NCBI RefSeq assembly: GCF_011734195.1
Contig: NZ_JAANTH010000002.1
Span: 372,001-436,000, forward strand
Direction of reading: 5' to 3'
Length of the DNA stretch: 64,000 nt
From: Halobacterium sp. R2-5
GTDB taxonomy: Archaea > Halobacteriota > Halobacteria > Halobacteriales > Halobacteriaceae
Shown here: in pieces, positions 51,483 through 54,779 of the stretch
Layout of the letters: every line of letters starts with the position of its first letter
How positions within the stretch are numbered: the first letter of the stretch is position 1
Position numbers and translations under genes: made by a program
Notes under the pieces: generated by a model
The model's database searches: none
What the model was told of the DNA's origin: nothing
What the model saw: only the letters and a program-made list of their open reading frames with translations

Positions 51483-52334
51483 TCACTCCGTGAGCGTCAG
51501 GCAGCCGAGGGAGGCGAACATCGCTTCTTCGGTTCGCACGACCTCACTGCCCTGCTGAGGGATGGTGTTGAGCCAGGCGTCGAATCGCGCGGGTGCGTCG
51601 GTGGATTGGTCGGCGACCGCCTCGCTGACCTCGTCCCCGGTGAGCCCGAGCATGGGCGGGAGCCCGCGTTCGGGCGCACCGAAGGCGACGGTCAGTCCGT
51701 CCCGGGCGGCGCGTTCGACGTACCCCCCGAGGGAGGCCGCGGAAAGCGGCGTCCCGTGGCGGGAGGTGGCGATGCGAACGCCCGCGTCGGGCCGGTCGAG
51801 AGCGTCACCGAGGGCCGTGCGTTCGACCGAGAACCCCGGGAGGGGTTCGTCGACCAGCTTCGCACGGACCGGTCGTCGCGAAGAGACCCTGATGGTCACG
51901 CGCTCCCCCTCCTCGACCTCCATACCGGGAGGCGTCTGGAGCGAGATTGGGTGTTGCATTCCGCAATTGACCCGAACGCGCCCTTCAGATCCGACCTGGG
52001 TCACGATTCCCTGTCGTAACGACCCAGACCCGCTCGAGTCTGAGCCGGTCCATGACGAGAGACGGAGCGGCGGCAGGACACCGGCGTACTCCAGTTCGTC
52101 GCGCGTGTCGAAGGCCTCCTTTCGGAGGTACGGTGGCGTCGCGGCGTACCGCAACACCGTTTCGACGAACCCGCCGCCCCACTTCCTCTCGCCGTCTTCG
52201 TCGGGGAAGACGACGAGGCGGTCAGTCCGGAACACCGCCGCCGCGCGGGCGACGTAACCGAGCTTGCGAGTCGCCTCGCGTTTGTCCTCGGCTTCCCGGA
52301 CGAGGGACGACGGCACGAGTACGCTGCGTGTCAT
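51483..52334 (-). CDS. SPOUT-family RNA methyltransferase (putative RNA uridine N3 methyltransferase)
   Basis: A 283-residue protein of the SPOUT family found beside rpl3 in archaea. The N-terminal SVLVPSSLVREAEDKREATR and VARAAAVFRTDRLVVFPDED are family text, and ETVLRYAATPPYLRKEAF marks the trefoil-knot entry. An OB-like insert (VTQVGSEGRVRVNCG) follows. Its C-terminal knot contains FGAPERGLPPMLGL. Eukaryotic relatives methylate 28S rRNA uridine; the haloarchaeal target is inferred as rRNA. It starts the S10-spc transcription unit, at ATG 52332-52334. Confidence 0.88.
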   Translation of the reverse strand: MTRSVLVPSSLVREAEDKREATRKLGYVARAAAVFRTDRLVVFPDEDGERKWGGGFVETVLRYAATPPYLRKEAFDTRDELEYAGVLPPLRLSSWTGSDSSGSGSLRQGIVTQVGSEGRVRVNCGMQHPISLQTPPGMEVEEGERVTIRVSSRRPVRAKLVDEPLPGFSVERTALGDALDRPDAGVRIATSRHGTPLSAASLGGYVERAARDGLTVAFGAPERGLPPMLGLTGDEVSEAVADQSTDAPARFDAWLNTIPQQGSEVVRTEEAMFASLGCLTLTE

Positions 52335-52350
52335 GCCGTGTCGCGTCCGT

Positions 52351-52365
52351 GTCTCGTCACGAGAC
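52351..52365 (-). promoter_or_regulatory. Perfect palindrome at the predicted 5' end of the ribosomal operon
   Basis: GTCTCGT-c-ACGAGAC is a perfect 7-bp inverted repeat 16-31 nt before the methyltransferase start. A minus-strand CCTTTTAC (52391-52398) is the likely TATA element, which would place the transcription start close to 52366. The palindrome would then be the very first transcribed bases, either a 5' hairpin or an operator. Confidence 0.45.
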
Positions 52366-52390
52366 TGTAGCGTAGTTACCGACGCCTCCG

Positions 52391-52398
52391 GTAAAAGG
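52391..52398 (-). promoter_or_regulatory. Candidate TATA element of the S10-spc operon
   Basis: CCTTTTAC on the minus strand, the only A/T cluster within 70 nt of the first gene, about 57 nt before the start codon. Confidence 0.4.
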
Positions 52399-52457
52399 GT
52401 GGCGTTTCCGCCGCCGGCCTGTGAGACCGTTTCACGGCCGTCTACCGCCGAATTCGT

Positions 52458-52474
52458 GTGCGAACTGTTCGCAC
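52458..52474. repeat. Inverted repeat upstream of the ribosomal operon
   Basis: GTGCGAA-CTG-TTCGCAC is a perfect 7-bp inverted repeat followed on the plus strand by TTTT. It lies about 60 nt beyond the candidate TATA element. It may be an upstream operator or a structural element; there is no gene on the plus strand for it to terminate. Confidence 0.35.
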
Positions 52475-52560
52475 TTTTCGGCAACTTACGGTACTCGCGT
52501 GCGCGACCCGGGTGCCGTCCCCGTATGTCGGTTTCTCCCAAAGCCGTCTCCAAAGCGTGG

Positions 52561-52570
52561 ATTTATATAC
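52561..52570 (+). promoter_or_regulatory. TATA element of tRNA-Gly
   Basis: ATTTATATAC is a strong archaeal TATA box 38-47 nt before the tRNA, allowing a short 5' leader for RNase P processing. Confidence 0.6.
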
Positions 52571-52607
52571 AACCCTGCCGTTGTTCGGAATGCGAACGAA
52601 GACAGGC

Positions 52608-52678
52608 GCGCTGGTAGTGTAGTGGTATCACGTGACCTTGCCATGGTCACAACCGGGGTTCAAATCCCCGCCAGCGCA
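52608..52678 (+). tRNA. tRNA-Gly(GCC)
   Basis: A complete cloverleaf. The acceptor stem is GCGCTGG/CCAGCGC, the anticodon arm is TGACC-TTGCCAT-GGTCA with anticodon GCC, and the T arm is GGGG-TTCAAAT-CCCC. The discriminator is A and CCA is not encoded. Its 3' 20 bases plus a few flanking bases recur twice downstream. Confidence 0.95.
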
Positions 52679-52947
52679 CTTCTCACAGTACAACGCCGAC
52701 GAGCGACGCTTGTGTCGGTCGTCGCGTTTCGACGTGAAGTGCATGGGATTTGGGCTCGGAACGAGCGACCAGCGGGAGCGAAGTTCCGGCGTTCAAATCC
52801 CCGCCAGCGCACTTCTCTACTAATTCTCACCGCTGAGCGACGTTTTTGTCGATCTGCGTGAGTGCGTCGGGATTTGAACCTGCGAGACGCAGCCGAACGA
52901 AGCGAGGACCGTCTCGCTCCGTTCAAATCCCCGCCAGCGTACTTCTC
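52659..52947 (+). repeat. Three tandem copies of the tRNA-Gly 3' end, period about 130 bp
   Basis: The string from the T-loop through the acceptor 3' side and about 6 flanking bases (TTCAAATCCCCGCCAGCG, then a 7-8 nt tail ACTTCTC) occurs at 52659 (inside the tRNA), 52792 and 52922. Copies 1 and 2 match over 26 bases; copy 3 has one change. Between copies, weaker similarity remains (GGGATTTG at 52745 and 52869), so the whole 130-bp unit is repeated. This looks like successive attachment-site duplications by a tRNA-targeting integrase, or tandem duplication. The later copies lack the 5' tRNA half and cannot make tRNA. The rest of the gap, 52948-53196, shows no gene. Confidence 0.8.
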
Positions 52948-53162
52948 TGAACGCTACGCCCCGCAGCGATGGCCGTGTCGCGTCGGGCGTTCGGCGGTGT
53001 GTGTTAGCAGTAGTTGTGGTGTTACGTATCTACCGCTCGATGCAGTCTGGATTCAGCAAGCATCTCCATCGCTGATGGTGAGAAATACGGTACCGTTTCG
53101 CCCCCGGAATAACGTGTTAGCAGTTCATAGCAAGGGTAAGCCCTTGCCGTTGCAGGCTGATC

Positions 53163-53170
53163 GTTTATCC
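53163..53170 (+). promoter_or_regulatory. TATA element of the small four-Cys gene
   Basis: GTTTATCC lies 27-34 nt before ATG 53197, the leaderless spacing. Confidence 0.5.
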
Positions 53171-53196
53171 AGCTACTGAACATTTTCTCGGATGAA

Positions 53197-53331
53197 ATGT
53201 CCCTCCCAGAGACCGTCTCGAAGATCGACAGCCTGAGCGACGAGCGACGCGAGTGCATCGAAATCTGTGACGAGGCCGCCGAGGTCTGCGAGTGGTGTGC
53301 CGAAAGTCGCCGGCAGATGGCGAACGCATAA
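53197..53331 (+). CDS. 44-residue protein with four regularly spaced cysteines
   Basis: ATG 53197 to TAA 53329-53331. The peptide reads MSLPETVSKIDSLSDERREC onward; the cysteines fall at ECIEICDEAAEVCEWCAES, that is C-x3-C-x7-C-x2-C on a predicted helix. This resembles one helical unit of the four-helix copper-binding (CIEAC...CEWCA) ferritin-like proteins, which are normally over 100 residues. It may be a free-standing small metal-binding protein or a truncated relative. G/C third positions and a leaderless promoter support expression. Confidence 0.6.
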   Translation: MSLPETVSKIDSLSDERRECIEICDEAAEVCEWCAESRRQMANA

Positions 53332-53453
53332 CCGAACGACCGACGGAATCACTTATTTTCTATCATCAACCCGCACGTGGTCACGGTCGGCCCGCATACA
53401 GGTCTCACAAGATGACGAACCAACCCGAAGATCGACTCTACTAGGGGGACAAA

Positions 53454-54455
53454 ATGAATCTACTCTACCTCGTTGTTGGCGTAATCTTTCTCCTGCTGAC
53501 CGTGGTTGACATGCTTTGGACGACGCTGTGGGTCGAGGGGGAGGCCGGCCCCCTCACCTCTCGACTGATGTCCAGTACCTGGACGATACTCGAGAAGGTG
53601 TCCGGTGAGCGTCCCCGCGTGCTCTCACTTTCCGGACCGTTAATTCTCGTCCTCGGACTCACCATGTGGATTGCACTTCTCTGGGGCGGATGGACGTTCC
53701 TTTTCGCAGGCGGCGAGGAGAGTCTACTCGACACGCGAAACACCGGTCCGATCTCCTGGACAGAGCGGGTCTACTTCGTCGGATACACGGTCTTCACGAT
53801 GGGGAACGGAGATTTCACGCCGAACGGCGGGATCTGGCGGATCGCGACAGCGCTCACAACGGCCAGCGGGATGTTCTTCGTCACGCTCAGTGTCACGTAC
53901 GTTCTCAACGTCCTCAGTGCTGTTACACAGAAACGCTCGCTGGCGGGCAGCATCCACGGACTCGGCGAACAGAGTACGGAGATTCTCGAAACGAGTTGGG
54001 ACGCCGACTCGTTCCAGGGACTAGAAGTACCGCTAAACCTGATCGTGAACGAGCTCGATACGCTGACAGCGAACCACAAGGCGTACCCCATTCTCCACTA
54101 CTTCTTCACGCCAGAGCGGTCGCAGGCCCCGACGACAAACGTCACCGTCTTGGACGAGACGCTCACGCTTCTCCAATTCGGCGTCGAACCAGAGCACCGT
54201 CCGAGTGAGCCAACCATCACGCAAGCTCGGTCGAGCGTACAGTCGTACCTCGATACACTGGAGAGCGAGTTCGTCGGACCAGCGTCGCAATCCCCGCCTG
54301 CCCCCGATCTCGAACAGTTGCGCGACAGTGGAATCCCTACTGTCTCGGACGAGGAGTTTACCAACTCGCTTGTGGAGGTAGACGATCGACGCCGACTTCT
54401 ACTGGGCCTCGTCGAATCGGATGCACGATCCTGGCCCAACACCGACAGCCAGTAG
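53454..54455 (+). CDS. Ion-channel-like membrane protein with altered selectivity filter
   Basis: A 333-residue protein. Membrane helices at about 4-24, 61-83 and 128-155 surround a pore-loop segment (WTERVYFVGYTVFTMGNGDF). The filter reads T115-M-G-N118-G-D120 where potassium channels have T-x-G-Y-G-D, so Tyr is replaced by Asn and selectivity may differ. Residues 160-333 are soluble (SIHGLGEQSTEILETSWDAD) with no RCK or cyclic-nucleotide domain seen. A GGGGGA element 9-14 nt before ATG could serve as a Shine-Dalgarno. Codon use is less G/C-biased than neighbours. Confidence 0.8.
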   Translation: MNLLYLVVGVIFLLLTVVDMLWTTLWVEGEAGPLTSRLMSSTWTILEKVSGERPRVLSLSGPLILVLGLTMWIALLWGGWTFLFAGGEESLLDTRNTGPISWTERVYFVGYTVFTMGNGDFTPNGGIWRIATALTTASGMFFVTLSVTYVLNVLSAVTQKRSLAGSIHGLGEQSTEILETSWDADSFQGLEVPLNLIVNELDTLTANHKAYPILHYFFTPERSQAPTTNVTVLDETLTLLQFGVEPEHRPSEPTITQARSSVQSYLDTLESEFVGPASQSPPAPDLEQLRDSGIPTVSDEEFTNSLVEVDDRRRLLLGLVESDARSWPNTDSQ

Positions 54456-54599
54456 GCAATCACCTACAAGCCACGTCTTGAGCAGTGGATCCTTCACCTG
54501 TACTGAACGGCAGTTTCACACCTCACTCTGCACAAAGAAACCGTACTAGCAACTGCTGGTAGGACTCGATATTACCGACGGCAGTGAAAGGTCGCCAGT

Positions 54600-54779
54600 T
54601 TACAGGCGGTCCCGGAGCGTCGCCACGACGGCGACGCCGACGGCGGCGATAGCGACGGCGAACGCGACGGGGTTGGTGGTGCCGTCGCCGAACCGCCAGC
54701 CGAAGACGACGTAGCCGACGACGCCGAGGACGCACGCGAGGACGGCGACCAGTGCGAACGGGCCGGAGCGCTGTCGCAT
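54600..54779 (-). CDS. 59-residue small membrane protein
   Basis: ATG 54777-54779 to TAA 54600-54602 encodes a 59-residue peptide with two hydrophobic helices: FALVACVL-like text (PFALVAVLACVLGVVGYVVF) and VAFAVAIAAVGVAVVATLRD, joined by a short loop GWRFGDGTTNP. Basic residues at both ends (MRQRS, RDRL) suggest both termini are cytosolic. Strong G/C third positions support coding in this frame against the overlapping alternatives. Small two-helix proteins of this kind are common in haloarchaea; function unknown. Confidence 0.65.
   Translation of the reverse strand: MRQRSGPFALVAVLACVLGVVGYVVFGWRFGDGTTNPVAFAVAIAAVGVAVVATLRDRL

Follow-up and report, generated by a model that had tools for sequence, protein, structure and literature searches.

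Short hairpin units ending in a copy of the tRNA 3' end form gene-free arrays behind haloarchaeal tRNA genes

The 64,000-nucleotide stretch of the Halobacterium sp. R2-5 genome analysed here (called the window below; positions 372,001 to 436,000 of contig NZ_JAANTH010000002.1) contains a tRNA-Gly(GCC) gene that is followed by repeats of its own 3' end, which raises the question of what these spare tRNA ends are and how they came to lie in tandem. The original prediction had described tail copies with a period of 130–133 bp and had interpreted them as marks of repeated site-specific integration and excision, or of an accretion of attachment (att) sites. The tandem arrangement was confirmed, with two copies of the tail after the tRNA gene at spacings of 133 (tRNA to the first copy, T' 1) and 130 (T' 1 to T' 2). 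Each copy ends a strong hairpin in which part of the tail, in inverted orientation, makes up the 5' side, and a second hairpin (H1) is predicted by folding between the tRNA and the inverted arm. The features of the array, all on the plus strand, are the following.

52608–52678, +: tRNA-Gly(GCC), found with ARAGORN (which places the 3' end at 52679) and the Rfam tRNA model
52659–52678, +: tail of tRNA-Gly(GCC), T54–N73, the block that is copied
52692–52728, +: spacer hairpin H1 of unit 1 (fold; orthologue alignment)
52745–52755, +: inverted tail arm, rc(T), of unit 1, GGGATTTGGGC
52756–52789, +: inner stem of unit 1, type B core GGAACGAGCG..GCGAAGTTCC (fold, orthologue alignment)
52791–52811, +: T' 1, copy of tRNA-Gly G53–N73, exact over T54–N73 (52792–52811)
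52826–52862, +: spacer hairpin H1 of unit 2 (fold)
52869–52880, +: inverted tail arm, rc(T), of unit 2, GGGATTTGAACC (inverted repeat)
52881–52919, +: inner stem of unit 2, type A core AGACGC..CGTCT (covariance-model match)
52921–52941, +: T' 2, copy of tRNA-Gly G53–N73, with one mismatch over T54–N73 (52922–52941)
52942–52990, +: trailer after T' 2, CTTCTC and a GC-rich stem (inspection), probably a further H1 with no unit behind it

The two strong hairpins of each unit fold better than shuffled sequences (z of -4.3 and -3.5), and the covariance-model match at unit 2 extends over window positions 52859–52941 (genome positions 424859–424941, E 1.1e-12). The H1 of unit 1 is a fast-evolving sequence that retains its shape, being about 52% diverged in the orthologue alignment. 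When the Rfam covariance models were run on positions 52000–54600, the tRNA alone was matched, and no Rfam family corresponds to the units. The array consists of two copies of a haloarchaea-specific non-coding unit family that is tied to the 3' flanks of tRNA genes.

The genes immediately downstream had been proposed as residual cargo, which is not borne out by their context. The 44-aa ORF at 53197–53331 matches no Pfam family above the cut-off, and the gene at 53454–54455 codes for an Ion_trans_2 channel protein. It stands between the array on one side and, on the other, a conserved gene for a small membrane protein (54600–54779, minus strand), which in relatives lies directly behind the tRNA. 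The channel gene is patchy (present in 7 of 25 relatives, and away from this tRNA in other congeners), and its closest relative found, at 77%, is from another family. Since no further tail copy bounds either the ORF or the channel gene, the latter is an accessory insertion and shows no sign of being the cargo of a unit.

The same anatomy was found far beyond this locus. In a set of 211 units behind tRNAs of 32 isotypes (tail exact in 137), the order is fixed: H1 hairpin, rc(T), a variable inner stem, and T', which ends at the discriminator base. The units are mostly of a narrow size, about 110–165 nt, and have no genes inside. The copied block is G53–N73 of the preceding tRNA and has two sharp edges (166 units), identity being 0.99 at G53 and 0.32 two bases upstream, and 0.95 at N73 and 0.63 just downstream. 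Such an extent, in which the identical block begins within the tRNA and stops at the 3' end, is typical of a tRNA att site. Of 200 distinct units, 145 have an rc(T) arm with no more than 2 mismatches in 11, where shuffling would give about 2, and the outer boxes read ATTTGAAC / GTTCAAAT. There are at least three types of inner stem: type A (AG[TA]CGC..CGTCT), the type B already given for unit 1, and type C (CACGC-n5-CGAGCG..AGCGAG-n5'-GCC). Cores are sometimes identical behind different isotypes (47 of 47 nt between Arg-CCT and Gly-TCC), and no foreign tails, as would be expected of units jumping together with their tail, were found inside the arrays. That cores are common to several isotypes and tails never are shows that the tails are made from the target or corrected later. 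The nearest relative of a core belongs to the same isotype in another genome in 10 of 36 cases and to the same genome in just 6 of 36, and we consequently rejected recent bursts of units within a genome. Two variants of this anatomy were seen. In several units, at L063 (tRNA-Ala CGC), L076 (tRNA-Ala GGC), L010 and L028, the T-stem of T' is split by a nested hairpin insert of about 60 nt of the CCAGACTCG..CGAGTCTGG type. Some distal copies (copy 2 of tRNA-Gly(TCC) in congener G010, and copy 2 of L387) include more of the tRNA, namely the anticodon arm or variable region, and are possibly older or larger duplications.

The hairpin shows covariation. When the type-A covariance model was aligned over 89 matches, 15 pairs had changes on both sides, with 217 double-changed cells compared to 81 in shuffled alignments, a value reached in none of 500 shuffles. 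The outermost helix joins the arm to the acceptor part of T', which is specific to the tRNA; 67% of its cells are paired, and all six pairs show double changes.

In the genome of strain R2-5, 17 of 42 tRNA genes have a copy of their own isotype-specific tail 86–190 nt downstream, and about half have the unit arrangement (including those for Asn, Met, several Arg, Phe, Ser, Glu, His and two Gly), and a purely local att relic was rejected for this reason. Every one of the 20 covariance-model matches with E < 1e-4 in this genome immediately follows a tRNA gene, in 19 cases on the same strand as the tRNA, and a dispersed mobile repeat was rejected on these grounds. Across four congeners, 50 of 169 tRNA genes are followed within 400 nt by their own tail (no more than 3 of 20 positions mismatched), compared to 0.125 expected from the tails of other isotypes, and the upstream flanks of the same 169 genes contain no such copy. 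The counts per genome are 17/42 for R2-5, 18/43 for G001, 16/40 for G010 and only 2/44 for G007. Within one family (f1), the type-A model gives low unit numbers for G007, G015, G017, G018, G021 and G024, and high ones for G000, G001, G003, G010, G014 and G020. In G001, two strong matches lie away from tRNA genes, one behind a decayed tRNA-Val-like tail and the other being the tRNA-Phe array displaced by an integrative element described below. On a larger scale, the covariance model has matches in 281 of 293 Halobacteriales genomes (96%; each at least 90% complete), and the number of genomes lacking them is an upper bound, as the type-A model misses other core types. In a draw across the phylum, 33 of 35 Halobacteriales genomes had matches and none of the 162 other genomes did. 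An exact-pattern search of named haloarchaea placed 44 of 54 matches within 400 nt downstream of a same-strand tRNA gene, several of the remaining ones being at contig ends. Carriage by viruses or plasmids was rejected: the exact pattern was absent from 2.9 million viral contigs, blastn gave no unit match in plasmids, and the single match in phages was due to chance and not relevant. A separate observation concerns the pattern GATTTGAACC..G..AGTCGC, which is also present at, or a few bases from, the ends of several rumen MAG contigs (L264, L266, L272, L282, L285 and similar ones), and which there looks like a common adapter sequence rather than biology.

The comparison of filled and empty sites that the original prediction had called for could be made in synteny for a tRNA-Gly(TCC) set from one genus. 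The empty site of L394 reads T|TTCTACAGCAACAAAAACGACCAGCC, with the flank directly after the tail, while the filled site of L391 reads T|unit|T'|unit|T''|TTCTGTGTCAGCAAAAACGATCAGCC, with the corresponding flank after the last tail copy. L379, L382, L383 and L393 have the Gly(TCC) unit at differing stages of decay. Units thus appear to be gained or lost precisely at the tail, and copy number at one orthologous tRNA gene ranges from 0 to 4 among relatives, so that the arrays differ instead of being identical in all of them. The arrays are also polar: where two or more copies are present, and up to 3 mismatches are allowed, the poorer match to the tRNA is the distal copy in 18 arrays and the proximal copy in 3 (p 0.0015); with up to 4 mismatches it is distal in 27 and proximal in 4 (p 3e-5). 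A looser count (50 against 9) admits chance matches and was not relied on. Since the distal copies are the more decayed, the youngest unit seemingly lies next to the tRNA.

Actual integrative elements use the same tails. Congener G001 has an element of about 77 kb at the T of tRNA-Phe(GAA) (from L397 9540–10976, C1:381543–382975, to C1:459129), with a tyrosine integrase (PF00589) beside the far attachment site, and the tRNA-Phe array has been moved by about 77 kb. The att region of this integrase reads GGCATTTGAACC-CCT-GGTTCAATGC, which is nearly palindromic, and that of related integrases has the near-palindromic form TTTGAACC-3 to 5 nt-GGTTCAAA; in both, as in the units, an inverted T-loop arm precedes the tail copy, here by 3–5 nt. 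Related integrases are present in 153 of the 293 genomes, the family being widespread in Halobacteria; the R2-5 genome, with its roughly 20 units, has no integrase of the family examined. By inspection, a unit with its tail hairpin can be seen past the attachment site in about a dozen of 30 integrase loci; only five pass the type-A model at E ≤ 0.01. The elements enter between the tRNA and the array and leave the latter intact. Elements and units have a common target and inverted-arm design, and the units are not left behind by the elements.

These results are best brought together, if only tentatively, by considering the units as cargo-less, att-like mini-elements mobilised in trans. Integrative elements, whether resident or visiting, would provide in trans a site-specific recombinase that recognises the T-arm/acceptor part of the tRNA (T) as its attachment site, with the palindromic rc(T)-stem-T' hairpin serving as the partner site. 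A unit would enter at T beside the tRNA, restoring the tRNA 3' end and moving the older tail copy outward, while recombination among T copies would remove or duplicate units precisely and keep the near copies identical to the tRNA. The recombinase, its action in trans and the entry step are inferred. The att-like interpretation is supported by the G53/N73 boundaries of the block, the specificity for the gene's own tail, the rc(T) arm and the covariation, as well as by the restriction to tRNA flanks and to Halobacteria, the precise L394/L391 site, the polarity and the integrases using the tails. Against it, no recombinase is tied to the units, and the integrase family considered above is missing from the very genome under study; the att palindrome of the integrases has a spacer of 3–5 nt compared to a stem of 30–50 nt in the units; cores cross isotypes while tails never do, so that a carried-in tail would need later conversion; and plasmids, phages and viral contigs gave no related match.

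The preservation of the core at orthologous sites with diverged flanks rather suggests host selection, and the main rival, which we consider somewhat unlikely, is a hairpin of use to the host, acting as a tRNA trailer RNA or as folded DNA, which selection would retain, for instance to process, terminate or insulate tRNA transcripts. It is possible that rc(T) pairs with either T or T', giving a two-state trailer. Its main support comes from such constraint. In the Gly-TCC set, core divergence is 0.08 per site compared to 0.41–0.55 in the following flank and 0.19–0.34 in H1, even in a unit family in which T', at 0.25, is the more decayed of the two; these loci were picked by their core, which biases them towards conservation. 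The type-C core is a single copy in most genomes of this set, and is thus not simply refreshed by conversion from a second donor copy. Similarly, orthologous Gly-GCC units of three congeners show 0/60 differences in T' and about 10% in the inverted arm and core (a hairpin about 90% identical), next to H1 and following flanks that are about 50% diverged, i.e. saturated. The covariation and the near universality in Halobacteriales also agree with a host function, although a congener with two units for 44 tRNA genes, other genomes with none, the variation from no to four copies at one orthologous gene and the persistence of decayed units do not. Wobble pairs, considered as a guide to RNA versus DNA structure, give a mixed picture: in the spacer hairpin they are unbiased for the sense strand (11 G-T vs 10 A-C), though in the inner stem of type A the counts are 7 and 0 (a symmetric scan, which misregisters the GAGCG/AGCGAG loops, was left out of account).

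An ancient trailer repeat with no enzyme of its own, whose T copies would slip or recombine homologously with each other so that units are multiplied and lost, is in our opinion unlikely. Concerted evolution with the tRNA would fix the tails and gene conversion would shuffle the cores, which is consistent with the exact tandem duplicate units at the tRNA-Glu of G010, with tails that follow recent acceptor changes (Asn, three congeners), with near copies being more alike than distal ones, and with the 10 of 36 nearest core relatives pointing to vertical descent. The origin of the inverted arm and stem at 32 isotypes, and the persistence of easily deleted direct repeats in 96% of genomes, are however left unexplained. 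The original prediction of scars left where integrative elements had integrated and excised time and again (with remnants of their deletion as a variant) stands in part. The tail block coincides with an att identity block, att-like sites do exist, copy number varies and integrative elements use these tails. The part that takes the array for the residue of a past cargo element is very improbable given a uniform family of narrow size with a conserved hairpin of its own, occurring at so many isotypes in nearly all haloarchaea, with neither cargo nor integrase in the units and with elements that enter upstream of an undisturbed array. Least probable is a Cas1- or casposase-like addition, in which the tail would be duplicated with each insert of about 110 nt entering on the tRNA-proximal side; the polarity and the exact duplication of a block of about 21 nt would fit, but the inserts are homologous to each other and are not captured DNA.

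Several known systems share features with the units. Archaeal tyrosine-integrase att sites in tRNA genes (SNJ2-like and related; PMC8371274) also have direct repeats that reach the 3' end of the tRNA, make use of the T-arm/acceptor region, and are gained and lost precisely, as the units appear to be. The units differ from them in having no integrase or cargo between copies, integrases, where present, being between tRNA and array with the elements inserted upstream of it, and in forming tandem units of 110–165 nt with a conserved inner stem of 30–50 nt at 32 isotypes. Integron attC arrays, including those of archaeal integrons (PMC9668308), are alike in their imperfect hairpins with conserved outer boxes, variable inner stem and asymmetric unpaired bases, in being anchored at one site and in having the youngest unit seemingly by the anchor. 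The folded, imperfect hairpin with a variable inner stem is found in the units too (covariation, several core types), but the T-loop box GTTCAAA does not correspond to the R boxes of attC (RYYYAAC / GTTRRRY), the anchor is a tRNA gene, and the units contain no genes. The resemblance to integrons is one of working principle, and membership fails on box sequence. REP/BIME sequences with RAYT transposases similarly comprise short palindromic units with compensatory changes, tandem arrays and alternating box orientation; the present units are not dispersed, occurring only behind tRNA genes, and their box follows the host tRNA. The small mobile repeats, PATEs and MITEs of Haloquadratum, for which repeat-mediated deletion has been reported (PMC3119063), are likewise transposase-free haloarchaeal palindromic repeats, but are dispersed, whereas the units are tied to tRNA tails and not found on plasmids. 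In a CRISPR-like array, constant repeats separate unrelated spacers, unlike the unit inserts, which share one structure and core families. No description of tail hairpin units was found in the open-access papers searched (most subscription journals being outside this scope), and the units are apparently undescribed in that literature, which is no proof of absence elsewhere. The closest reports are of single partial tRNA repeats bounding proviruses (PMC3119063) and of archaeal attachment sites (PMC8371274).

Taken at its broadest, the comparison leads to a possibility that we regard as rather doubtful, that of an order-wide system in Halobacteria in which tRNA genes anchor an integron-like array of cargo-less folded units with spare tRNA 3' ends, added on the tRNA-proximal side by dedicated recombination. 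The hypotheses raised here lend themselves to direct tests in laboratory haloarchaea. A tail repeat behind a tRNA gene of a haloarchaeon should not count as proof of a genomic island. With units in 96% of the sampled haloarchaeal genomes and behind most tRNA isotypes, this feature is relevant to the emergence of integration hot spots at tRNA genes, to concerted evolution in polyploid archaea, and to the question of whether there are folded-DNA cassette systems other than integrons.
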